From a virus, in the IMG/VR virus record IMGVR_UViG_3300025110_000051, positions 1 to 35,843 of that record: a stretch of 35,843 nt of DNA. One strand, given 5' to 3'. Of this stretch, positions 9,060 through 34,851 are shown piece by piece (position 1 is the stretch's first letter; each line of letters starts with the position of its first letter). A model generated the notes under the pieces. It worked only from the letters and a program-made list of their open reading frames with translations, had not been told where the DNA came from and made no database searches. The position numbers and the translations under genes are program-made.

Positions 9060-9369
9060 TAGACCAACTAGAGCTGTTCAACATAAATTAATTGTTGAAG
9101 AATTTAAAGAATTCCTAGAAGCTGAAGGTATGCTATTTATGCATGGTAGAAACCATCAAGAACATGCATTAAAAGAGTTAGCTGATTTAGTATATGTATG
9201 CTATCAGTATGCTGAAAATATGGGATGGTTTTTAGACGAAGCTCTAAACCGTGTCCATGAAAGTAATATGTCCAAGCTCGGTGAGGACGGTAAACCAATA
9301 TACCGAGAAGATGGAAAGGTCTTAAAAGGACCGAATTATAAACCACCTGATTTATCGGATCTATTTTAA
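8989..9369 (+). CDS. MazG-like / phosphoribosyl-ATP pyrophosphohydrolase-like NTP pyrophosphatase
   Basis: 126 residues of the all-alpha NTP pyrophosphohydrolase fold. Metal-binding acids are visible as EEFKEF in the first helix and KELADLVYV in the second, followed by the family's C-terminal GKPIYREDGKVLKGPNYKPPDL. Such enzymes hydrolyse (d)NTPs to monophosphates or, in cyanophages, have been proposed to affect alarmone pools; the substrate cannot be read here. Starts inside the DUF3310 gene. Its stop overlaps the ribonucleotide reductase start as TAATG. Confidence 0.87.
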   Translation: MKKTFLSEQAKEFRSKYNLSNRADRPTRAVQHKLIVEEFKEFLEAEGMLFMHGRNHQEHALKELADLVYVCYQYAENMGWFLDEALNRVHESNMSKLGEDGKPIYREDGKVLKGPNYKPPDLSDLF

Positions 9370-10745
9370 TGACTGCACAATTAATATCCCGTACAGGACG
9401 GGTCCAATCATGGTTGGATAATCCTGAATCAAGACTCCCCGTCTCATGCACCGTTTTCGTCGTAGAGGATTCTATGGAGGGAGAAAATGGTATCGAAAAA
9501 TCATGGAGATATGTATCCCATGGACTCAGATTTGGCGCGGGAGTTGCGGTCCATCTATCTAAGCTCCGTCCCAAAGGAGCAGAAAACGGCAAAGGTCTTA
9601 CAGCTTCTGGCCCAGTATCATTCGGAAAAATCTACTCAACCTTAAATGAAACACTTAGAAGAGGCGGAGTTTACAAGAACGGTGCGGTGGTTTTGCATTT
9701 GGATCTCAATCACCCTGATATCCTTGAGTTTATCACAACTCCACGGGCAGAACTCCCATGGGTCAAGAGGTGCGTCGATATTGATTCGGGATGGTGGAAC
9801 AGTGCATCTAATCAAGTAAAGGATGCGTTACTACACGGCATAAAGTCAGGAGATATCTGGCTTAATAAAGTAAAATACAACAATGGAGAAAGAATTTATG
9901 GCAACGTCTGTCTTGAGGTTTACTTGCCCTCACGCGGGACCTGCTTGTTACAACATGTCAATCTCAGTGCCTGTACTACAGGAAACATCGAGCAGGCTTT
10001 CGCTGAAGGTATGTCCGAATTGTGCGGGCTCCATAGCAGGACAGGTGTTGGAGCAACTGGAGAATACCTGTCAGCTGATATCGACCGCCAAGTTGGGCTC
10101 GGAGTACTCGGTCTCGCAAACCTCTTAGGACGTTATAAAGTAACGTATAAAGAGTTTGGCGATCAGTTAGAGAATGTTAACCGAGGTGAGTATGGTAATG
10201 GTGTAGGGTATGAATTAGCTTTCAACCTTATGCTAGGTATCCAACGAGCTGCTGATATAGCTGAAGAAAATAATATGGTAAGAGCTTTTGCTATAGCTCC
10301 TACTGCCTCTTGCTCATATAAGAGTGAGAGTTTGGATGGCTTTACAGCTACTCCTGAAATAGCACCACCAATAAGCACCTGGGTTGATCGCGATAGCGGT
10401 ACCTTTGGTGTACAAAGATATCAATACGGCGATGTAGAAATCGCTAGTGAAGTTGGTTGGGATGCTTACAAGAAAGTGGCAGATCAACTGATGATCATGT
10501 ATGATAATACGGGACTTCTTCACGGATACTCATTCAACTCTTGGAGTGATGTAGTAACCTACGATCGTGAATTCGTGGAAGAGTGGTTACTGTCACCTCA
10601 GACCTCCCTTTATTACAGCCTTCAAGTGATGGGAGACACACAAGATAAGACCGATGCATATGCAGCATTAGATCAAGGTGAAGTCGATGATTACTTGCAG
10701 GACATTTTAAACGAACCAAGTCCTACCTGCGATTGTCAAGAGTAA
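9369..10745 (+). CDS. nrdA: Ribonucleotide reductase alpha (catalytic) subunit, compact class I type
   Basis: 458 residues, much shorter than bacterial NrdA (about 760) and without an ATP-cone domain. Reduces ribonucleotides to deoxyribonucleotides. Visible: C27 (VSCTVF), N179-C181-E183 (GNVCLEV, the radical-site N-C-E triad), C192 (GTCLLQHVNLSA) as candidate partner of C27, the PTASCSYKSES phosphate-binding loop, Y415-Y416 (SLYYSL, matching the class I radical-transfer tyrosine pair) and the C-terminal C454-x-C456 redox pair. The adjacent ferritin-like gene and the tyrosine pair argue for class I. Proteins of this cyanophage group have at times been annotated as class II. Confidence 0.92.
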   Translation: MTAQLISRTGRVQSWLDNPESRLPVSCTVFVVEDSMEGENGIEKSWRYVSHGLRFGAGVAVHLSKLRPKGAENGKGLTASGPVSFGKIYSTLNETLRRGGVYKNGAVVLHLDLNHPDILEFITTPRAELPWVKRCVDIDSGWWNSASNQVKDALLHGIKSGDIWLNKVKYNNGERIYGNVCLEVYLPSRGTCLLQHVNLSACTTGNIEQAFAEGMSELCGLHSRTGVGATGEYLSADIDRQVGLGVLGLANLLGRYKVTYKEFGDQLENVNRGEYGNGVGYELAFNLMLGIQRAADIAEENNMVRAFAIAPTASCSYKSESLDGFTATPEIAPPISTWVDRDSGTFGVQRYQYGDVEIASEVGWDAYKKVADQLMIMYDNTGLLHGYSFNSWSDVVTYDREFVEEWLLSPQTSLYYSLQVMGDTQDKTDAYAALDQGEVDDYLQDILNEPSPTCDCQE

Positions 10746-14510: not shown

Positions 14511-15569
14511 ATGACAACAGCCACACTAAATAAATCCCCGCTTCAAAACTGGGATGAATTTTGTGACTGGGTTACTAGCACTAACAACCGCCTCTACGTG
14601 GGGTGGTTCGGTGTCCTTATGATACCCGCACTCTTAACTGCAGCAACCTGTTTTATAATAGCGTTTATAGCTGCACCGCCAGTAGACATTGACGGCATAC
14701 GCGAACCAGTCGCAGGCTCATTACTTTATGGAAACAACATTATATCTGGAGCTGTTGTACCTAGTAGCAACGCTATTGGGATGCACTTCTACCCCATCTG
14801 GGAAGCTGCTAACATTGATGAGTGGCTCTACAATGGAGGACCTTATCAGCTCATCATCTTCCACTTCCTTATTGGCATCGCAGCTTATATGGGACGACAA
14901 TGGGAACTTAGTTATAGACTTGGAATGCGACCATGGATAGCAGTAGCTTATTCAGCACCAGTCTCAGCAGCATTTGCTGTATTTTTAGTGTACCCATTTG
15001 GTCAGGGGAGTTTCTCTGATGGCATGCCTCTTGGTATTTCCGGTACTTTCAATTTTATGTTCGTCTTCCAAGCCGAGCACAATATCCTCATGCATCCATT
15101 CCATATGCTTGGTGTTATTGGGATGTTCGGGGGAGCTTTATTCGCTGCTATGCACGGAAGTCTCGTTACTTCCTCGATCGTTAAAGAAACAACTGACATT
15201 GAGTCACAGAATTATGGCTATAAATTTGGTCAAGAAGAAGAGACGTATAACATCGTCGCTGCTCACGGTTACTTCGGCAGGTTGATTTTTCAATATGCTA
15301 GCTTTAATAATAGCCGTAGTCTTCATTTCTTCCTTGCTGTTTTCCCCGTCGTTTGCATATGGTTTACCTCCATGGGGGTATCCACTATGGCTTTCAATCT
15401 CAACGGGTTTAACTTCAACCAGTCTATACTTGACGCTGAAGGAAGGGTGGTCCCTACTTGGGCTGACGTGCTCAACCGCGCCAACCTAGGTATGGAAGTA
15501 ATGCACGAACGAAACGCACACAATTTCCCGCTTGACTTAGCGGTTACTAAGGAGTTAGAGTATGCCTAA
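14511..15569 (+). CDS. psbA: Photosystem II reaction centre protein D1
   Basis: 352 residues, five transmembrane helices, apparently intact. It replaces host D1, which turns over quickly in light, and keeps photosynthetic electron flow during infection. Manganese-cluster ligands are present near the C-terminus: H332, E333, H337, D342 and A344 in [14 protein letters not shown]. After A344, the normal processing site, there is only VTKELEYA, unlike the longer cyanobacterial extension that ends in PAIG as I remember it. That tail overlaps the next small gene and carries its ribosome binding site. Start immediately follows the hli stop; CAGGA at 14497-14501 is a plausible Shine-Dalgarno. Confidence 0.99.
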
Positions 15570-18429: not shown

Positions 18430-21404
18430 TGGCAAGTATTACACAAACAATCCCTAATTATAATGCTGGGATATCACAACAGCCAGATCAATCAAAACGT
18501 CCTGGACAATTAGTTACTGCTAAGAATGTAACGCCTGACCTAGTTCAAGGTCTTATGAAACGTCCAGGTGGTAAATTAATTGGATCCTTAAGTGATGGAT
18601 CTAATAATTCTGTAACTAATGGAAGATGGTTTCATTACTATAGAGACGAAGATGAACAATATATAGGACAGGTTGCAAGAAATGGTGTAGTTAAAATGTG
18701 GAGTTGTATTGACGGCTCTGAGAAGACTGTTAATTATGACTCAGGTACTGCTTCAGCTACAGCTGCCTATCTAACTCATACTAACGATGAGGATATACAA
18801 ACACTAACCCTTAATGATTATACATATGTAGTTAATCGTACTAAGACAGTTGCAATGGATAGTACCACTGCTCCTACTAGACCTTTTGAAGCTTATGTTG
18901 AATTAAAAAAAGTAGCTTATGCTAATCAATATGCACTGAATTTATTTAATAATACTAATACTGTTACTTCAAAGACTGCCACTAGGATTAAAGTTGACTT
19001 AATTAAATCTAGTAATAATATGTGTAATGGTAGTGGAGGAATGGTTGCTCAAAGTTCAAGACCTAGTCAATCAAGTAGATGTACCAGTGGGGACACTAGA
19101 GACGCCTGGTGCCCTAACATTGCAACACGTATATTTGCAGTAAGTAGTGCTGGCTCCTTAACTGATGATGGTATATCAGGTGCATACACTTATAATGTAG
19201 ATATTAATGGCTCAAACGCTACAGGTAGAGCAAATTTATATTTTAGAATAAGTACTATAGGTCAGTCTGTACCATTTGGTGATGGCTCAGATGTTACTTA
19301 TCAGTGTAGATATACCACAACTCACGACCTGTTATACGGTGGTGAAGGTTGGGATCAAGGTGACACTTTTCATGTCTGGATGAAGGATGGTTATTATAAA
19401 ATAACTATCGAAGAGAATAGTGTATCTGAAGTACAAGCAAACCTTGGTCTTATACGTCCTACACCTACATCATTTGATACTAAGACAACTGTTACAGCTG
19501 AAAGTATATTAGGTGATTTGCAAGAAGACATTATAGCAACTAGTGAATTCAGTAGTTCAGAAGTACAGATCGTAGGTAGTGGTATTTATTTAACAAATGG
19601 TACTGCATTTAACGTAAGTTCTCCAACAGGTGAGTTACTTAATGTAGTTACTAATGAAGTAAATGATATAACTGACCTACCTACTCAATGTAAAAATGGT
19701 TATGTAGTTAAAATTAAAAACAGTGTAGCTCATGAAGATGATTACTTCGTTAGATTTGATGGAGAACATGGTCGTGATGGACCTGGAACATGGACAGAAT
19801 GTCCTGAACCTGGACGTAAGAATACTATAGACCAAGGCACTATGCCTATCTCTATTGTTAGGGAAGCTAACGGTACCTTTACTGTAGATCAAATCTTATG
19901 GGATTCAAATACTTGTGGTAATACTACAACAGTACCTGAACCTTCTTTTGTAGGTAAGACAATTAATAAGATGATCTTCTTTAGGAATAGAATGGTAATG
20001 CTCAGTGATGAGAATGTTATCATGTCTAGACCTGGAGACTTCTATAATTTCTGGCCTCGATCTGCTATCACATATACTGCAACAGATAATATTGATTTAT
20101 CATGTAGTTCTGAAAAACCAGCAATAGTATGGGATGGTATACAAGTTAATGCTGGTTTAGTACTATTTACTAAGACTCAACAGTTCATGTTGACTACAGA
20201 TAGTGATGTACTGAGCCCTCAAACTGCTAAGATCAACGCTCTAGCTGCTTATAATTTTAATTATAAAACTAACCCTATCTCATTAGGTACTACTATAGGA
20301 TTCTTAGATAATGCTGGTAAGTATTCTAGGTTCTGGGAGGTAGCTAAAATACTAAGAGAAGGTGAACCTATTGTTGTAGACCAGACTAAGATTGTAAGTA
20401 AATTATTTGATAAAGACTTAGAAATCATATCTAATTCTAGAGAAAATGGTTTTATATTCTTTAGTAAAAAAGGTGATACGACTTTATATGCGTATAAATA
20501 CTTCAATAGTAGCGAGGAACGTTTACAGCAAGCTTGGTTTACATGGGAAGTGATGGGTACAATTGAACATCATGCTGTATTAGATGATGCTTTATTTGTT
20601 GTTGTACGCAACGGTGGTAAAGATGTTCTTCAAAAATTCTCACTAAAAATTGATGATGGTGAACGTGAAATAAATGATAACCAAGGTACAACTAGTGATA
20701 CTACTGATGATATTACATACAGAATTCACTTAGATAATAGCACTTTAATTGCTTCTAGCTCCTTATCTGCATACGATGCTGTTAACAATAGAACTACTTT
20801 TAATTTACCTACGGGTTTTAATAATAGTTCCGGTCAGTTAGCAGTCTATGTAGTACCTAGTTCTACGGATCTAACCTTTCAAGGACGCTCAGAGAATGTA
20901 TCTACTTATGTAGAGAGTGGTGTTACTAAAGTAAGTCTACCTGGAAACTGGAAAACATATGATCCACAATATGTAGAAGATGGTAGTACTGGTGATGAAG
21001 TAACACCTGCTAATAACATAGTCTTAGGATATCAGTTTGATATGGAAGTAGAATTTCCTACTATCTATTATCAACAACCTGTGGGAAATCAATGGAGAGC
21101 TTTAATTAATGGGTCTTTGGTTGTTCATAGAGTTAAACTTAATTTTGGAGCTAATGGTTTATATACTACAACTATTGATAGAAGAGGTAAACCATCTTAT
21201 ACAGAAACGTGGGAACCTATTATTTCTGATGACTATTCTGCAAACAGAGTACAAATTAATGAACAAACAGAAAGAGTTATTCCTACCTATGAACGGAATA
21301 AGAACTTAACTTTAACTTTTAAATCAACACATCCAACTCCTGCTACGTTATATTCAATGACATGGGAAGGAGATTACACCACTCAGAATTACAAACTTGT
21401 CTAA
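18429..21404 (+). CDS. Tail tubular protein B / nozzle (T7 gp12-like)
   Basis: 991 residues, longer than T7 gp12 (794). Forms the hexameric tail nozzle below gp11. The N-terminus ITQTIPNYNAGISQQPDQSK is characteristic, as are KRPGGKLIG and, in the middle, GKTINKMIFFRNRMVMLSDE followed by MSRPGDFYNFWPRS. The region of residues about 190-330 is rich in Ser, Asn, Gly and Thr and probably accounts for the extra length. Codon use is AT-rich. An 8-base overlap leads into the next gene. Confidence 0.95.
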   Translation: MASITQTIPNYNAGISQQPDQSKRPGQLVTAKNVTPDLVQGLMKRPGGKLIGSLSDGSNNSVTNGRWFHYYRDEDEQYIGQVARNGVVKMWSCIDGSEKTVNYDSGTASATAAYLTHTNDEDIQTLTLNDYTYVVNRTKTVAMDSTTAPTRPFEAYVELKKVAYANQYALNLFNNTNTVTSKTATRIKVDLIKSSNNMCNGSGGMVAQSSRPSQSSRCTSGDTRDAWCPNIATRIFAVSSAGSLTDDGISGAYTYNVDINGSNATGRANLYFRISTIGQSVPFGDGSDVTYQCRYTTTHDLLYGGEGWDQGDTFHVWMKDGYYKITIEENSVSEVQANLGLIRPTPTSFDTKTTVTAESILGDLQEDIIATSEFSSSEVQIVGSGIYLTNGTAFNVSSPTGELLNVVTNEVNDITDLPTQCKNGYVVKIKNSVAHEDDYFVRFDGEHGRDGPGTWTECPEPGRKNTIDQGTMPISIVREANGTFTVDQILWDSNTCGNTTTVPEPSFVGKTINKMIFFRNRMVMLSDENVIMSRPGDFYNFWPRSAITYTATDNIDLSCSSEKPAIVWDGIQVNAGLVLFTKTQQFMLTTDSDVLSPQTAKINALAAYNFNYKTNPISLGTTIGFLDNAGKYSRFWEVAKILREGEPIVVDQTKIVSKLFDKDLEIISNSRENGFIFFSKKGDTTLYAYKYFNSSEERLQQAWFTWEVMGTIEHHAVLDDALFVVVRNGGKDVLQKFSLKIDDGEREINDNQGTTSDTTDDITYRIHLDNSTLIASSSLSAYDAVNNRTTFNLPTGFNNSSGQLAVYVVPSSTDLTFQGRSENVSTYVESGVTKVSLPGNWKTYDPQYVEDGSTGDEVTPANNIVLGYQFDMEVEFPTIYYQQPVGNQWRALINGSLVVHRVKLNFGANGLYTTTIDRRGKPSYTETWEPIISDDYSANRVQINEQTERVIPTYERNKNLTLTFKSTHPTPATLYSMTWEGDYTTQNYKLV

Positions 21405-21837
21405 ATATATTCACCCAATTACAATGGAGGCTGCTCTTGAAGTGGCCTCTAATCTACTACCTGCTGACCGTCGTGAGGTCGAAGAGGGTCATGGTGTAGA
21501 TGCAAAAGAAGCTCTTATTGATGCTGTTCAGAAACCCTCCTGTGTATACTTCGTAGTGCCTAACGGCAAGACTGCAGGTATGGCTGGAGTAGATGAAGGA
21601 GGACAGATCTGGATGTTATGTACAACCGCTATTCATGACTATCCCATGACCTTTGTTCGAGAGGCAAAGCGTTATGTTGAACGTCAAGAAGACAAGTTAC
21701 TTTGGAATATCGTAGATAAACGTAACAAAGTACATTTAAAGTTGCTTCAATTCCTAGGGTTCAAATTTCTAAAGGAATTTAAACATGGACCCAACCAAAT
21801 AACCTTTATAGAGTTTTGCCGTGTGCTTAGGTGCTAA
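21397..21837 (+). CDS. Internal virion protein A-like (T7 gp13, DUF2833/GNAT-like)
   Basis: 146 residues (T7 gp13 138). Starts at TTG 21397 because YIHPITMEAALEVAS forms the expected N-terminal strand and helix; ATG 21424 would remove it. Central segment AGMAGVDEGGQIWMLCTTAI and C-terminal LWNIVDKRNKVHLKLLQFLGFKF correspond to the gp13 pattern (trans-membrane-independent, GNAT-like fold). In T7, gp13 is needed for infectious particles. Overlaps gp12 by 8 and gp14 by 17 bases. Confidence 0.85.
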   Translation: MSKYIHPITMEAALEVASNLLPADRREVEEGHGVDAKEALIDAVQKPSCVYFVVPNGKTAGMAGVDEGGQIWMLCTTAIHDYPMTFVREAKRYVERQEDKLLWNIVDKRNKVHLKLLQFLGFKFLKEFKHGPNQITFIEFCRVLRC

Positions 21838-22639
21838 AGAGAAGGCTGCAAATGAGCAGCTAAAACGAGATTATCAGCATAAGCTCGATTTAAGAGAGCG
21901 TAAATGGATGCAAGACATTAGTTTAACTAGGGTCCAGCATTTACAACATGAACAAGGTATAGATGCTAGCAATCTTGGATTAGCTAACTTCTTTACAGAT
22001 ATACAAGAGAAACATGGAGAAGCAGTTGATGCAATGTTTACTCAAAGTCAAGAAGATTGGAAAGAATATTTAGCTAAGAATGCAGGTGACCAACGTAAAG
22101 CAGCAGGACAACTAGGTAGATCTACAGATCGTATCAGTGCTGTTGACCTTGGGGCATATCTTAAGAAAGGTCATGATCAAGTAGAAGCATTAACTAAAGC
22201 TTCAGTAGCAGCTAATAAAGCTGCAGGTCAAATGACTGCTAAAGTTAGAGCACAGCAGATGCAATCATTTGCTAATAATATGTTTATTAAACATCCTGAT
22301 ATTGCACCTCCTAAACCTGTTGGTCATGATGTGGGAGCTGCAGCATTCAGAGATGCATTACAAATTGCTAGTACAGTTGTTCAAACTGGTATGGCAGTTG
22401 CTTCTCCATTTATTATTAAAAGTGATAGAAGTTTGAAAGAGAATATTAAGAAATTAGGTGAATCACCATCTGGTATAGGTATTTATAAATTTAATTACAT
22501 TGGTAATGCTAAGAAATATATAGGTGCTATGGCTGATGATGTTATGAAAGTTGTACCAGAAGCTGTATCTACTATGGCTAACGGATTCTTTGGTGTTAAC
22601 TACAATCTCATTGATGTACAATTTAAGGAGGTAGCATAA
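21821..22639 (+). CDS. Internal virion protein B-like (T7 gp14) with C-terminal S74 chaperone/peptidase domain
   Basis: 272 residues against 196 in T7 gp14. GTG start at 21821 (MCLGAKEKA). Residues 1-200 are helical and alanine/glutamine-rich, as in gp14, which forms the outer-membrane channel at ejection in T7. Residues 201-272 are a separate S74-like domain: S201-D-R-S-L-K206 ENI, then GIYKFNYIG, YIGAMADDVMKVVPEAV and a C-terminal helix. S201 and K206 have the spacing of the catalytic Ser-Lys of intramolecular chaperones, which cleave before the Ser. The extra length equals this domain. Confidence 0.85.
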   Translation: MCLGAKEKAANEQLKRDYQHKLDLRERKWMQDISLTRVQHLQHEQGIDASNLGLANFFTDIQEKHGEAVDAMFTQSQEDWKEYLAKNAGDQRKAAGQLGRSTDRISAVDLGAYLKKGHDQVEALTKASVAANKAAGQMTAKVRAQQMQSFANNMFIKHPDIAPPKPVGHDVGAAAFRDALQIASTVVQTGMAVASPFIIKSDRSLKENIKKLGESPSGIGIYKFNYIGNAKKYIGAMADDVMKVVPEAVSTMANGFFGVNYNLIDVQFKEVA

Positions 22640-25110
22640 TGGGTGTTAGAGTAAATGGTCAGTACTATCTTTCAGAAATTACTGATTACCTTACACCAGC
22701 TGAGAAAGCTGCGAAAGAAGCTAAGGCTAGAGAAGAACGTGCTCACCAAGATCGGATAGCACATAGTAAGAATATATATGATACTGATAAAGGCATGCAG
22801 CAATTAGCAGCTGTTAAAAGTCTTGCTACGTTATCAGCAACTGTAGCTAAAGGTGTATCACAGGGAAAGAAAGCAAGGGAGCAGAAAAAAGCAGAAGAAC
22901 AAACAGCAACTAATCAAAAATTAACTTTTCTTACAAGTAATCCTACTCATAAAGACGGGTTTAGAACGGCATTAGAATGGAATGAGAAAGCAAAAGGTAT
23001 TAATGAACAAGATCAGACCTTTAAAAGTTTTGTTGAAGGTTTAAGAGCAGAAGACAAACTATCTGATGAATTAGCACGATACTTACTTAAATCATCTTCT
23101 GGAGAATTATTACGTGCTAAACTATGGCAAGGTTCTGATATTGTAAATAACTTTGAAACTACATATAAAGATGATATAAATAATCTTAGAGGTAAAGATA
23201 GAGTAGATCATGCAGCAGAATTTAATACTCCTGAAAAAGTTCAACATGATTATAGAACTAAATTAAATACAGCTCTTACTGCTTTAGGTCTTGATGAAGA
23301 TACTATAATATCTAATTTTGCTACTTCGATACAAAGTTCAAGTGAGAAGGTTAAGACTGCTGCATCTCTTTTATACAGTACAGAAGGTAAATTTGAAGAA
23401 GCTATATCATTTGAGCAGGGACTTGAAAAAGCTAGAACAGTTCAGAAAGAAGGTATCTTAAATCCAATAAAGGGACCTGTTCCAGATCCTAGGCTGGATG
23501 AAGTTTCAGTGTTTGTTAATCAGCAACTAGATACTTTCACTGCTCTTTATACAGAGAAGGGTATGAAACCTGAGCAAGCTCGGCAAATGGCAAAACAGCG
23601 AGTAACTGCTTTAATTAAAATGTCAGTTATTCGAAAAGAATTTAATCAGGCTGATTTAGGGGACTTAAAAAAAGGTTTGAATTTAGGTAATCATCCTGCA
23701 GGCAAACATGGAGATGTCTTATTAAGTCAGGATCAGTTTAAAGAAATTGAAATTGCTATAAATAATACTAATATACAACTAAAAGCACAGCATGAGGTAG
23801 GTGTTACGAAGATGCTTAATGAAGGTTTAGGTTTAGCCGTAGCTAATAAACTTACAGTTGATCAACATTCTGATTTAATACTTAAATTAGATCAATTAGG
23901 TGTTGATAAAAATTCTAAGGAATATAAACAATTACTAAATTATAACCCTGATGCTCAATCAGCTACTTATTATAAGAAAGAGCAAGAGCAGTTTTGGAGT
24001 ACGATAAAACTTGGTAGAACAAAAAACCTTAAAGCTCAAATAACAAATATTAAGAACAATCAACTAAGAAGCGAGTTAGAACAACTACACGATAGGATAA
24101 CAGTTAGTAAGGATCAAAATAATTGGCCTGTAACTTATAAAGATGTGGCTAGATCAATGGTTGTAGAAAAAGGTAAATTAACTATAAATCCTGGTGTAGA
24201 ATTACAAGGCAATGTTTTAGGTGTAAGAAATCATATTGCTAATTTAGCTGATGGATTTTATATGTATGAAATGAGCAGATCAGAACCTGGTGATACAGAG
24301 GTAGGAGCACGTGCTCTAGTTAAATTAAATGCTAAACTTGATGAATTAGGATTTAATGTAACTAAGGAAGATGATCCAAGAGCTGGTATATTAACACCTG
24401 GAACTAGGGGTCAATATAACCGATTCGGAGTTCATACTAATGTTCAAGCAGAACTAGGTAGGAGTGGTGGAGATTTTAGTCAAAAAGCAAGGAAGATAGT
24501 CAGTCTATTTAATGATCCTCAAGGTACAGGCGTTAATACAAAGCAACGTGTTTTAACTTCTCCAGGACTTTTAACTAATATAGAACTACTAGCTGTATCT
24601 AAAAATACTCAACTTAATAATCTTACAAGTTGGCCTCGTGATGTTTTATCAACAGCAGAGATGTTAGGCGTAGCTCCGAGTGAATTAGTACGTGCTCAAT
24701 TGAAAGCTCTTATAGCTAGCCCAGATAAAGCAGATAAAAAATTCGTACAGACTTATCAACTAGATAAGTTTTTAGATAAGATACCTACTGTAGATGTTGA
24801 GGTAAGAAAACTTCTCGAACAGAGTGGTAATAAAAATCTTTTATCTAAGTATGAGCATTATGGACTTAGAAGTTTTCATCCAGGAGATTATGAAACTTTA
24901 GTTGGGATTGAACAGGGTGTTGAAAAACTTGGGCAAAAAGAAACTAAAGAAGCTCAAGAAGTTAAAGCAAAAGAATCTAGAATAACAAGAATAAAAGAAT
25001 TATTCGGGAAAGATTTTAAAATAAAACCATCTCTTTTGAAAACTCTTCTAGAATCTGATGAAGCTTTAGATAAATTTATAACTGAACAAGGCTTACTCGA
25101 ATCAAAATAA
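22639..25110 (+). CDS. Internal core protein (T7 gp15-like)
   Basis: 823 residues (T7 gp15 747). Component of the inner core that is ejected into the cell and forms the periplasmic DNA conduit in T7. Mostly helical, lysine- and glutamine-rich. The N-terminal GVRVNGQYYLSEITDYLTP and a long helix (AAKEAKAREERAHQDRI) are followed by many repeats of helical segments. Identified mainly by length, composition and position between gp14 and gp16. TAATG links it to the upstream gene. Confidence 0.88.
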   Translation: MGVRVNGQYYLSEITDYLTPAEKAAKEAKAREERAHQDRIAHSKNIYDTDKGMQQLAAVKSLATLSATVAKGVSQGKKAREQKKAEEQTATNQKLTFLTSNPTHKDGFRTALEWNEKAKGINEQDQTFKSFVEGLRAEDKLSDELARYLLKSSSGELLRAKLWQGSDIVNNFETTYKDDINNLRGKDRVDHAAEFNTPEKVQHDYRTKLNTALTALGLDEDTIISNFATSIQSSSEKVKTAASLLYSTEGKFEEAISFEQGLEKARTVQKEGILNPIKGPVPDPRLDEVSVFVNQQLDTFTALYTEKGMKPEQARQMAKQRVTALIKMSVIRKEFNQADLGDLKKGLNLGNHPAGKHGDVLLSQDQFKEIEIAINNTNIQLKAQHEVGVTKMLNEGLGLAVANKLTVDQHSDLILKLDQLGVDKNSKEYKQLLNYNPDAQSATYYKKEQEQFWSTIKLGRTKNLKAQITNIKNNQLRSELEQLHDRITVSKDQNNWPVTYKDVARSMVVEKGKLTINPGVELQGNVLGVRNHIANLADGFYMYEMSRSEPGDTEVGARALVKLNAKLDELGFNVTKEDDPRAGILTPGTRGQYNRFGVHTNVQAELGRSGGDFSQKARKIVSLFNDPQGTGVNTKQRVLTSPGLLTNIELLAVSKNTQLNNLTSWPRDVLSTAEMLGVAPSELVRAQLKALIASPDKADKKFVQTYQLDKFLDKIPTVDVEVRKLLEQSGNKNLLSKYEHYGLRSFHPGDYETLVGIEQGVEKLGQKETKEAQEVKAKESRITRIKELFGKDFKIKPSLLKTLLESDEALDKFITEQGLLESK

Positions 25111-25114
25111 CATT

Positions 25115-28100
25115 ATGGAAGAACAAGAAATTAGTTTGGAAGACGCTCTAAAAGAATTGGAAGTTCCTACGGGTACTGATTCAGAGAACATACCAACATC
25201 TTCTACGGAAGTTTCTACGGAAGGAGAATCCACGGGCGGAATCCGTGGTATGGATCAAGTCTATGACGACAGAGCAGCTGCAGGAGGCGAAGAAGCCCGC
25301 TTTAGACCTGGACCTTTAGGATATACACAAGATATACTAGAAGGTACAGGTAGAAATATATACGAAAGTGCAGCACCTTTAGTTGGTATTTCAGATACAA
25401 TTATAGATGCTATCAACTTTGCTTCAGCAGGTTCTACATTTGATATACCTAAGTTACCTGCATACGAAAGCGAAGTGTATACAGCTTTACGTAACATATC
25501 AGGACTTGTAATACCATCTCTTGGTCTTAGAAGTATGGCATTAAATGCTGGTGCTAAGGCACATGCATCAGGTCAAGCAGCACCTTGGTTACAGAAATTA
25601 GGTAATATTAAATCATTTGAATACTTTGCTAAGTTTGGTATTGATGTAGGTACTGGTGCTGCAGTTGATTATGTAGCAGAACAAAACCAGAAGGATGATA
25701 ACCTAATGGGTGTTCTTAAAAACTTCTGGCCTAAGACATTTCAATTTATACCTAATAGTATAGCTACAAATCAAGATGATTCAGCAGGCGAGAAACGTGC
25801 TAAGAATGTTAATGAAGGTGCTGTTTTTAGTGTCTTTGCTAGTATCATTGAAGGTATAGCTTACTTAACTAAAGCTGGTAGAAGTATTACTAGAACACGT
25901 CAATTTATTGATTCCTCTGGTAAAGAGATAAAAGTTGGAGATCAATTTACAGATATCAAATTCTCTGATAATATAACAGAGGACACTATTCTTAGAAATT
26001 ATGCTAGAAAAGAGAATTCATTAAATGAACTTAGTGAGTACTATATCAGTAGAGGTGAAGAGCCTCCTAATTGGCCTACACTTCCTGAAAGTGATACTTT
26101 AGTTAGAACTCCTGATGATGATGGGATTATTGGTGCAGCTGCAGACGCTGCTCAAATCCAGAATAACATTGAATCTGGTTGGGGTAGACTTGGTACTATT
26201 GTTAGTGAAGCTGCTAGAAAAGAAGGACTTGAAATTAACAATCTAACTAATCGTACACTTGTTAGTGAATTAACAGATCAACTCAAGAAGGCTGGTAAGT
26301 TTAGTAAAAAGTTAAGATCTAGTACAGTGCTAACTGAACGGATGATTGATAAAGCTGGTAGAACTTTAGCAGCTACACTCTTACATCCTAGAGTTGATAC
26401 TGATGATATCCTTGGAATCTTAGATGAATTCAAGAGATCAGTTGATGACTCAGTAGTTAGAATTGTAGGTAAGAAAGGTATTAATAGAGCGGTTAAACAA
26501 TTAAAAGCTCAAATGTTAGACCTTGATGCTCAGAAAGCTAGAGCATATCTAGTTACTTCAGAAGCTGGACAAGTTGCAGACTTCTCTGAAGGTGTAAGGC
26601 TTATGGAAGGAGGTTCTTCTATAATGAGAACTGTTGATCTTATGGCAGATCGCTTAGAAGTACTGATGGTAGAGAAAGGTTTAGCTAATTTTGAAGCAGG
26701 ATCTATGTTTGCTAAGATGAGAGCTTGGCAATCTGCTGTAGATACTGGTGATGCTAGTATTATGAATGCGGCTGCTGAAACTATTTTAGATAGTAGCACT
26801 GCTAAAATGACAGAGATCATACCTAAAGCTAAGGAATGGGCTAATACATTAAAAACAGTATCTAGAGAGAATCCAGAATTTCTAAGACCTTTGTTATTAG
26901 CTAATGAATTTACTGATGGTGATGTAGATAGTCTATATAAACTACACAGTTGGGCAGCTGATAATCTATCAACATTTAAAAAAGCTATTTATGATGGTAA
27001 TCCTCATGTACCTTCAATAGTTAATAAAGTATGGTGGAGTAATTTATTTAACTCAGCATTATCTGCTATGAGTACCCCCGCTGCTGCAGGTGTAGGTAAC
27101 TTAACTGGTATATTAGGTAAAGGTCTGGCTACTGTTACAGGGGCTGTATTGCAAGGTGATATAGCTAGAGCTAAGAAAGCTATGGTAGCTCATTTTGCAT
27201 TAGATGATACCTTACAAAAAGCTATGGGTCATATGCAATTGGTCTTTAGAAAAGCTTCTAACAATCCTAAAAAAGTTAGTTATGTAATGCGTAGTGATGT
27301 AGCTATTCAAGAAGAAAGAGGTTTAGAGAGTTTAAGAGCATGGGCAGACGCTGCTGAAGCAAAAGGCGAAGAAGGCGGTAAAATGATGCTTAGTGTTTTT
27401 GAAGACCTTGATGCATTAGCTAGTGATCCTTTCCTTAGGTTTGGAGGTAACTCCATGACAGCACTTGACGGATTTTCTAAATCAGTCATGGCTAATACAG
27501 AAGCTAAGTATATAGCATTTAATAAACTTGCTCAATCAGGAGAAGCTATTACTGATAAAAACTTTAAAGCTGCTGTAGATGAAGTTTATAATAAATGGTT
27601 TGATAGTAACGGTATGCTCAGTAATGATGCTGTAGATGCTGCAACTAGTGAGATAGCACTTAATGCTAATTCACCTGTAGTTGATGGTATGAATGAATTA
27701 ATTAAACGATTCCCAGCTGCTAGGACTTTTATATGGTTCCCTAAAACTACGGCAAACGTTATAGATACATTCGGTAAGTGGAGTCCTGCAGGTATATTAT
27801 CTGCTGATTATCAGAAATTATGGGGTCCATTAGGTAGAAAATCATTAGAGGACTTTTCATTCGATGAGATATCAACTTTCTTAAAAAGTAAAGGTAAGGT
27901 AGTAGATGAGTCTGCTATGGATACTTTTGAAATGCTTCGTTATGAAGTCAAAGGTAAAGCTGCTTTAGGTAGTCTTGCTATTACAATGGCTGGTATGGCA
28001 GCTATTAATGATAGATGTACTGGTAATGGTCATTATGATAAATCAATCCAAAGACAACGTATAAGAAGTGGATGGAAGCCTAAATCTTGTAAAGCTCCTG

Positions 28101-29074
28101 GAACTAACAAACAAATTAGTTATGAATGGATGGGTCCAGTAGGTGATTGGCTAGCTCTTACTGTTGATGTTGTAGACAACTTTGATAGTTTGTCTGTTGG
28201 TGTACAAGAAGATCTATACAATAAACTTATGTTTGTTTTAGGTTCTTCTATTACTAATAGATCAGTTCTTTCTCAATTAGAACCTATGTACGATGTAATG
28301 CAAGGTAACGGTGCAGCAGCTATGAGGTTCCTAACTAACTTTGGTAATAACTTAGTACCTTTAGGTAGTCTAAGAAATGAGTTGGGTAAAATTATGTACC
28401 CTCAGTTACGTCAAATTCGTAATGAATTGGATCAGAACTTAAGAAATAGAAATGCTTTCTTAGATGCTGTAGACCCTGAACGTTCACTATCTTCAGTAGT
28501 TGATCCTATTGATGGTAAGGAAATTGGTAAAGAAGATAACTGGTTCCTTAGAGTTTGGAATAGAGGACCAGCAAAAGTTACTAGCTTACCATCTAAAGAA
28601 CGTCAATTCCTTATTGATATTGAATTCAATAGCAATCCTCAGATGAGGTTAAGTAATGGTGGAGCAATATTAGAAAACCATGAGATAGCAGCTATTAATA
28701 GTAAAATGGGAGAGCAAGGTATTTATAAAGAAGAAATAAATAGAATAATGAAAAGAGCTGAATCACTTACTTACACTGCTCCAGATGGTACTAAATATAA
28801 AGGTTTTACCAATATTATCCAAGGTCAACGAAGAGGTTTAATCTCTTCAGAGATTTTAGATACTGGTAAATATGCAAATATTTTCTCTGAACTAAGAACA
28901 GCATATGCACAAGCTAAACGTTTAGCTGAAAAACATATAGATCCTATATTAAGAACAGCTATTGAAGATCGTGAATATGAATTAAAAACTAATAGACGGA
29001 ATCAACAATATGGTGATATAGATCAAATTGTTCAAGATGCCGGATTAACTGAAACACTTAACATGGCTAAATAA
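25115..29074 (+). CDS. Internal core protein (T7 gp16-like), no transglycosylase domain seen
   Basis: 1319 residues, nearly the length of T7 gp16 (1318). Ejected core protein that pulls in DNA in T7. N-terminal 60 residues are acidic and disordered. I do not see the lytic transglycosylase domain that begins T7 gp16. Hydrophobic segments occur at about residues 655-700 (SALSAMSTPAAAGVGNLTGI, then ATVTGAVL) and 950-965 (GSLAITMAGMAAI). The region LIKRFPAARTFIWFPKTTAN matches a pattern common to cyanophage gp16 as I recall. Starts 4 bases after the gp15 stop. Confidence 0.88.
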   Translation: MEEQEISLEDALKELEVPTGTDSENIPTSSTEVSTEGESTGGIRGMDQVYDDRAAAGGEEARFRPGPLGYTQDILEGTGRNIYESAAPLVGISDTIIDAINFASAGSTFDIPKLPAYESEVYTALRNISGLVIPSLGLRSMALNAGAKAHASGQAAPWLQKLGNIKSFEYFAKFGIDVGTGAAVDYVAEQNQKDDNLMGVLKNFWPKTFQFIPNSIATNQDDSAGEKRAKNVNEGAVFSVFASIIEGIAYLTKAGRSITRTRQFIDSSGKEIKVGDQFTDIKFSDNITEDTILRNYARKENSLNELSEYYISRGEEPPNWPTLPESDTLVRTPDDDGIIGAAADAAQIQNNIESGWGRLGTIVSEAARKEGLEINNLTNRTLVSELTDQLKKAGKFSKKLRSSTVLTERMIDKAGRTLAATLLHPRVDTDDILGILDEFKRSVDDSVVRIVGKKGINRAVKQLKAQMLDLDAQKARAYLVTSEAGQVADFSEGVRLMEGGSSIMRTVDLMADRLEVLMVEKGLANFEAGSMFAKMRAWQSAVDTGDASIMNAAAETILDSSTAKMTEIIPKAKEWANTLKTVSRENPEFLRPLLLANEFTDGDVDSLYKLHSWAADNLSTFKKAIYDGNPHVPSIVNKVWWSNLFNSALSAMSTPAAAGVGNLTGILGKGLATVTGAVLQGDIARAKKAMVAHFALDDTLQKAMGHMQLVFRKASNNPKKVSYVMRSDVAIQEERGLESLRAWADAAEAKGEEGGKMMLSVFEDLDALASDPFLRFGGNSMTALDGFSKSVMANTEAKYIAFNKLAQSGEAITDKNFKAAVDEVYNKWFDSNGMLSNDAVDAATSEIALNANSPVVDGMNELIKRFPAARTFIWFPKTTANVIDTFGKWSPAGILSADYQKLWGPLGRKSLEDFSFDEISTFLKSKGKVVDESAMDTFEMLRYEVKGKAALGSLAITMAGMAAINDRCTGNGHYDKSIQRQRIRSGWKPKSCKAPGTNKQISYEWMGPVGDWLALTVDVVDNFDSLSVGVQEDLYNKLMFVLGSSITNRSVLSQLEPMYDVMQGNGAAAMRFLTNFGNNLVPLGSLRNELGKIMYPQLRQIRNELDQNLRNRNAFLDAVDPERSLSSVVDPIDGKEIGKEDNWFLRVWNRGPAKVTSLPSKERQFLIDIEFNSNPQMRLSNGGAILENHEIAAINSKMGEQGIYKEEINRIMKRAESLTYTAPDGTKYKGFTNIIQGQRRGLISSEILDTGKYANIFSELRTAYAQAKRLAEKHIDPILRTAIEDREYELKTNRRNQQYGDIDQIVQDAGLTETLNMAK

Positions 29075-34005: not shown

Positions 34006-34851
34006 ATGGCAGAATTAAAAATTAAAGCGGACTCAGGCGGTGGAACCGTTTCATTTAAGGGTCCAGCTACAACAACAAGTAATGCTGCCGTTCAACTCAC
34101 TCTTCCAGTGGATGATGGATCGGCAGATCAATATTTAAAAACAGACGGTAGTGGAGCCCTTAGTTGGGCTACTGTCTCATCAATAGGTGGGGACACAGGT
34201 ACAACTTTTAACGATGATGTAAAAGTTAAATTTGGGACGGGAAATGATCTTGAAATCTTCCATGATCCTGATGGTGGTGATAGCTCTGCTGCTATAACCA
34301 AAATAATGGCAAATAATGGTGATTTAAGAATAGGTACCCAACTAAATAAGAGGGTTATTTTAGGTGCTTACTATGATGCTGGAGGTGGTGGCGATACTCT
34401 AGAAATCTGGGGTGGTTCGAATATAGTTCCAGCTGCCAATGATACTATGGATTGCGGAGAAACAAACCATAAGTGGGATGATATCTATGCTACTAATGGT
34501 ACAATTCAGACCTCAGATCGAAATGATAAAGATAATATCACAACTAGTGATTTAGGTTTATCCTTCATCAATAAACTATCTCCTAAATCTTATAAGTTTA
34601 AAGGTAAAACGAGAACTCACTATGGTCTTGTATCACAAGATGTAGAGACTGTCTTAGGTGATATAAGTAAACCTACTTCAGGTTTTGCTGGTTTTATTAA
34701 AACAGATAGTAGCGAAGCTAAAGATGGTAGTAGTTATAATTATGGACTACGTTACAACGAGTTCATAGGACCGCTTGTTAAAGCAGTACAAGAGTTAAGT
34801 GCAGAGGTCGAAACACTTAAAACTAAAGTCGCCGCACTGGAGGCAGGCTAA
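34006..34851 (+). CDS. Tail fibre/spike with C-terminal S74 intramolecular chaperone domain
   Basis: 281 residues. N-terminal beta-rich part with AAVQLTLPVDDG and YLKTDGSGALSW, then the GTGNDLEIFHD module at about residues 66-87. The C-terminal S74 domain starts at S170-D-R-N-D-K175, followed by SFINKLSPKSYKFKG, THYGLVSQDVETVLG and a terminal coiled coil (VKAVQELSAEVETLKTKV). In this family the domain trimerises the spike and cleaves itself off before the Ser; S170 and K175 have the catalytic spacing. TAATG overlap with the next gene. Confidence 0.88.
   Translation: MAELKIKADSGGGTVSFKGPATTTSNAAVQLTLPVDDGSADQYLKTDGSGALSWATVSSIGGDTGTTFNDDVKVKFGTGNDLEIFHDPDGGDSSAAITKIMANNGDLRIGTQLNKRVILGAYYDAGGGGDTLEIWGGSNIVPAANDTMDCGETNHKWDDIYATNGTIQTSDRNDKDNITTSDLGLSFINKLSPKSYKFKGKTRTHYGLVSQDVETVLGDISKPTSGFAGFIKTDSSEAKDGSSYNYGLRYNEFIGPLVKAVQELSAEVETLKTKVAALEAG
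34201..34266 (+). repeat. Shared fibre module GTGNDLEIFHD, copy 2
   Basis: 22 codons (TTFNDDVKVKFGTGNDLEI and FHD), matching 32641-32706 in the large fibre gene. Confidence 0.75.

Follow-up and report, generated by a model that had tools for sequence, protein, structure and literature searches.

The gene at 21821-22639 of the window (the whole 35,843-nucleotide stretch of viral DNA analysed here, positions 1 to 35,843 of IMG/VR record IMGVR_UViG_3300025110_000051; the gp13 to gp16 genes and the fibre-like gene described below are on its + strand) encodes a gp14-type internal virion (ejection) protein with a C-terminal Peptidase_S74 domain. We propose, as a reading whose chances we judge to be about even, that this domain is a detachable cap which cuts itself off during assembly and leaves an ordinary gp14 of about 200 amino acids.

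The reading frame is a genuine one of 272 amino acids with a GTG start, identified by its synteny and by a match to phrog_19322 (E 4e-23), and it stands between gp13 and gp15 in a gp12-gp13-gp14-gp15-gp16 gene order. Upstream lie a nozzle gene (PF25675) and then a gp13-like internal virion protein gene (21397-21837, phrog_308) which overlaps the gp14 start by 17 bases (21821-21837); all 32 aligned relatives share the Cys that follows the start codon, and the overlap may account for part of that invariance. Downstream, an 823 amino acid protein (22639-25110) had no family match and is placed in the gp15 slot by position only, and it is followed by a gp16-like internal virion protein (25115-29074, phrog_6651). 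The window also encodes a T7-like RNA polymerase, a primase-helicase and a DNA polymerase, and these T7-like replication genes, together with psbA and the T7-like structural cluster, point to a cyanopodovirus origin. The psbA gene, a cyanophage marker, is at 14511-15569 (Photo_RC, E 1e-88), inside the structural region, flanked by portal-side genes and by the gene of the major capsid protein. In the protein encoded at 9369-10745, the match to the ribonucleotide reductase large subunit is limited to residues 25-143 of 458 (116 of 523 profile positions), and this protein is divergent or rearranged. A DNA-level search against deposited phages found no close relative of the window.

The gp14 body (residues 1-200, 21821-22420) has 34-36% identity over residues 1-190 to the gp14-slot proteins of P-SSP7, P-SSP2 and P-SSP3. 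A structure model of it, built from 32 relatives, is helical, without a triple beta-helix, and over residues 28-152 its top match is the ejected channel form of T7 gp14 (8e4g chain a, labelled T7 internal virion protein gp14; Z 11.6, rmsd 1.7 Å, 125 of 127 residues), the next matches being unrelated helical chains with Z of 10.0 or less, the next one at 4.1 Å. The Pfam profile PF24072 (T7_gp14) did not match the window protein up to E 1, but it likewise misses the gp14 of P-SSP7 and so does not reach cyanophage gp14. By synteny and predicted fold, then, the product is a gp14-type ejection protein, as the original prediction had claimed in calling it a T7 gp14 homologue. That prediction also held it to be longer than its T7 counterpart by about one C-terminal domain, which is what is found: T7 gp14 (PDB 8e4g, 7ey7, 9jz0), in the same genome slot and with the same fold over residues 28-152, has 196 amino acids and no S74 domain, whereas the window protein is 76 amino acids longer and its extra length is a C-terminal domain of 72. 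The P-SSP7 protein in this slot ends at 200 amino acids without S74, and a P-SSP2 relative ends at 193. In T7, gp14 is packed in the head, is ejected first, forms a channel in the outer membrane and is water-insoluble (PMC8954989); there are eight copies in the virion core and six in the outer-membrane channel after ejection, and in the virion no structure is resolved for its C-terminal region 130-196 (PMC11784390).

The S74 domain (residues 201-272, 22421-22636, ending ...GVNYNLIDVQFKEVA before the stop) begins SDRSLKENI at residue 201, where it had been predicted to begin. Residues 201-249 match PF13884 Peptidase_S74 above the curated cut-off (30.3 bits against 22, E 5.3e-7), and the domain itself extends to the stop at 272. 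The isolated domain is modelled as a compact fold that ends in a short strand (pLDDT 96.1), and the fold match to S74 looked for in a structure check was obtained: the best match is the MyRF ICA (7dc3_A) at 1.7 Å over 51 residues, but with a Z of only 3.7 and with the first 18 model residues omitted from the alignment. Because this Z is low, and because Foldseek alone gave only poor kinase-like matches and did not have 7dc3_A among its best 50, the S74 assignment rests mainly on sequence. A phmmer search of the PDB with the S74 segment only gave no match, and family profiles gave weak matches to the S16 long tail fibre (6f45), MyRF (7dc3) and the GA-1 neck appendage (3gud).

Four other accounts of the domain were considered and set aside. 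Dozens of independent contigs have kept the S74 domain on gp14, which rules out chance or a spurious reading frame. Misplacement from the neighbouring fibre gene is ruled out by the in-frame fusion at the same place in relatives and by the low identity, only about 30% over 71 aligned positions, between the S74 domains of gp14 and of the fibre-like protein. A decaying remnant is ruled out by its pairwise dN/dS and invariant dyad, both given below. A defence or toxin role drew only weak, coiled-coil-like matches from PADLOC.

The predicted nucleophile, Ser201 (22421-22423), and the predicted general base, Lys206 (22436-22438), both assigned by family conservation, are five residues apart, and this is the spacing of S911/K916 in endosialidase NF and of S587/K592 in MyRF (PMC8326128), so the catalytic spacing read from the letters at the outset was correct. 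Lys is present in 54 of 54 S74 domains and Ser in 53, the remaining one having Cys (L035:546-773, CDVRLKED), with which a nucleophile would be retained. One of the search patterns had contained the Lys, and conservation was therefore rechecked on a set collected via the gp14 N-domain alone, where Ser and Lys were both present in 22 of 22 S74-bearing members. Gly235 (22523-22525), the counterpart of an essential glycine of endosialidase NF (G956) and MyRF (G626) (PMC3742443), is kept in 54/54 domains and the equivalent of Asp202 in 51/54, and the four residues that precede the Ser vary freely across the same 54, which fits a self-cleavage that needs no sequence to the left of the cut, here predicted between residues 200 and 201. 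The chaperone of endosialidase NF (PF13884) thus shares with the window domain the S74 core, the spacing of five, the essential glycine, the C-terminal position and an acidic or amide side chain following the Ser, but endosialidase NF is a triple beta-helix spike, whereas the 72-residue S74 of the window sits on a helical ejection protein and has no C-terminal helix. MyRF ICA, with Ser587 and Lys592 equivalent to the dyad of the window domain, likewise differs from it in having the alpha4 coiled coil that makes its trimers.

In MyRF these C-terminal alpha4 helices form a triple coiled coil, the chief force behind trimerisation and a requirement for cleavage (PMC8326128). In the S74 ends of gp14 a VxY motif lies just ahead of where alpha4 would start, and from it to the stop there is a median of 11 residues in 79 proteins (also 11 in the window copy); the coiled coil was looked for, and no complete gp14 copy has it. 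A control is provided by the window itself, in a fibre-like protein (34006-34851; PF13884, E 3e-10), in which the S74 domain (residues 170-218) is followed, unlike that of gp14, by a complete C-terminal heptad helix (YNEFIGPLVKAVQELSAEVETLKTKVAALEAG). Among the PHROG profiles, phrog_6121 and phrog_4287 (virion structural / DNA ejection protein) continue for 4-5 positions past the S74 match, and most tail-fibre families for about 29-76. The window gp14 therefore has the S74 core and not the full trimerising chaperone. The suggestion of a fibre- or spike-like trimerisation of gp14 by the domain, followed by cleavage, has consequently found no support and is the least supported of the readings weighed here; we regard it as very improbable. 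Family, dyad and essential glycine are those of known S74 domains, and the six gp14 copies of the ejected T7 channel could be taken as two times three, but the trimer-driving helix, which the window's own fibre-like S74 protein has, is gone from the complete gp14 copies, eight, the copy number in the T7 virion, is at odds with trimers, and the gp14 body is predicted to lack the triple beta-helix.

A search of gp14 in other cyanopodoviruses had been named as a check in the original prediction. S74 is present in 23 and absent in 51 of 74 distinct gp14 N-domains (73 retrieved and that of the window), and the N-domain tree requires 15 changes of S74 state, at least 11 of them on well-supported branches. 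The S74-less proteins are mostly 190-207 amino acids long, and in carriers the S74 domain starts at a median near residue 195; two S74-less proteins (L115 and L118) end ..IYSGFS-stop where at the same place a carrier (L013) reads ..IYSGFT followed directly by SDRRLKEN. Between L186 and L180 the N-domain DNA is 98.7% identical and the start of gp15 is shared, yet the cassette is in only one of them. Conversely, the N-domains of L112 and L132 are 56% identical while their S74 domains are 97% identical, and members of the Ser-Ser subtype, where Asp202 is replaced by Ser, do not form a single clade on the N-domain tree (p-AU 7e-6), so that S74 alleles move between gp14 lineages. Pairwise dN/dS of the domain is about 0.06-0.28 (ten pairs, and small numbers), which indicates purifying selection on these sequences. 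Presence of S74 was not linked to gp15 type (13 versus 15 changes), on a gp15 tree with very long branches. On gp14, then, S74 is an optional cassette which has been repeatedly gained and lost, and its absence from 51 of 74 N-domains, mostly ending at 190-207 amino acids, suggests that it is dispensable after assembly.

Such a history would also be expected of a self-removing passenger, a cassette of little or no use to gp14 which is tolerated by virtue of cutting itself out and has spread by recombination at the gp14-gp15 junction, and the 11 to 15 gains or losses, the exchanged alleles (L112/L132 and the scattered Ser-Ser subtype) and the independence from gp15 type are all in its favour. 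We consider it improbable, as the domain is under purifying selection and as the same short domain ends unrelated podovirus ejection proteins, suggesting a common task.

Directly before the Ser is a hydrophobic segment modelled with low confidence (residues 171-200, ALQIASTVVQTGMAVASPFIIK, 22331-22420; pLDDT under 50 at 178-199), and the S74-less relatives have their C-terminus inside or just past the matching segment. Among 79 proteins the hydrophobic stretch before the Ser is at a median of the 98th percentile within its own protein. In the capping mechanism that we favour, gp14 would be synthesised in the infected cell with S74 covering the end of this hydrophobic segment, and the cap would maintain gp14 in solution, or in its proper form, up to its encounter with gp15, the portal and further gp14 copies, its partners in the growing core. 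The gathering of gp14 copies would align Ser201 with Lys206, the domain would cut itself between residues 200 and 201, and the virion would then contain an ordinary gp14 of about 200 amino acids, the 72-residue domain being discarded. As alpha4 is absent, the trigger is probably not a coiled-coil trimer of the fibre or MyRF type, and a contact inside the gp14 assembly would have to substitute. We infer the cleavage, its timing before or at packaging and the chaperoning benefit; a cap and a self-cut are supported by the S74-less forms ending at the would-be cut and by the invariant dyad. The original suggestion of self-cleavage during assembly is plausible, with the dyad in 22 of 22 of the N-domain set and the end points of S74-less gp14s on its side. 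Against capping, conservation of the Ser and Lys could reflect a structural role, Asp202, where mutation lowers cleavage in MyRF (PMC3742443), is replaced by Ser in a few lineages, and, by the same analogy, the predicted domain may be unable to cut since the alpha4 coiled coil is missing in complete copies. As most close relatives manage without S74, the need for a chaperone would in any case not be general.

If the domain did not cut, it would stay on gp14, being packed with it, binding gp15, the portal, DNA or another gp14 and being ejected along with it, the dyad being structural or idle. This is possible but, in our judgement, unlikely. The lack of alpha4 in complete copies would make cleavage poor by analogy with MyRF, the unresolved region 130-196 of T7 gp14 in the virion (PMC11784390) leaves space for an extra domain, and the isolated domain is predicted to be compact, with its short terminal strand (pLDDT 96). 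However, Ser and Lys are invariant while the flanking residues vary freely, the S74-less forms end at the predicted cut, and a retained domain would need to pass with gp14 through the portal-tail channel.

The original prediction saw in gp14 an unusual host for S74, and the carrier is indeed unusual but not unique, as several other podovirus groups have short S74 ends on ejection proteins. An association of S74 with ejection proteins is already visible in database annotation, several of these proteins being annotated as ejection or S74 proteins. The usual carriers of S74 are tail fibres. Similar short ends are found on ejection or structural proteins of EPV2, Rhizobium RHph_I3_18, Sulfitobacter phiGT1 and Microcystis Mae-JY35, of the P22-like Pseudomonas PAE2, Pseudoalteromonas H6/1 and Salmonella 7-11 (where the S74 match is just under the Pfam cut-off) and on a protein of Aeromonas LAh_9. 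In phrog_6121/phrog_4287 (EPV2 gp27, RHph_I3_18, phiGT1_17 and 7-11 gp20), PAE2_13 and H6/1 gp17, S74 likewise ends soon after V-x-Y, and these podovirus proteins are mostly in the slot of a small ejection protein, but their N-terminal parts are unrelated to that of the window gp14 or very distant from it. A short S74 end of this kind is also seen on proteins of 540-630 amino acids in four other marine viral contigs (L040, L048, L054 and L062). A search of the non-subscription literature for S74 with ejection proteins found no paper describing or testing the combination.

Taken more broadly, the short S74 without a trimer helix might be a self-excising module of ejection proteins, cutting at core assembly, which would be mobile in the manner of an intein, as no trace is left on the mature protein, and so free to enter and leave the gp14 of marine cyanophages; we put this forward as a speculative and rather unlikely extension. 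The question that a capped gp14 would address is how podophages restrain a water-insoluble, membrane-inserting ejection protein until it is packaged, and a removable chaperone cap, present or absent in near-identical relatives, would amount to a natural experiment on it. If true, capping would widen the range of S74 clients beyond fibres to a helical protein that is not a trimer, and would show whether S74 cuts without a coiled coil, which would be unexpected under models based on endosialidase NF and MyRF.
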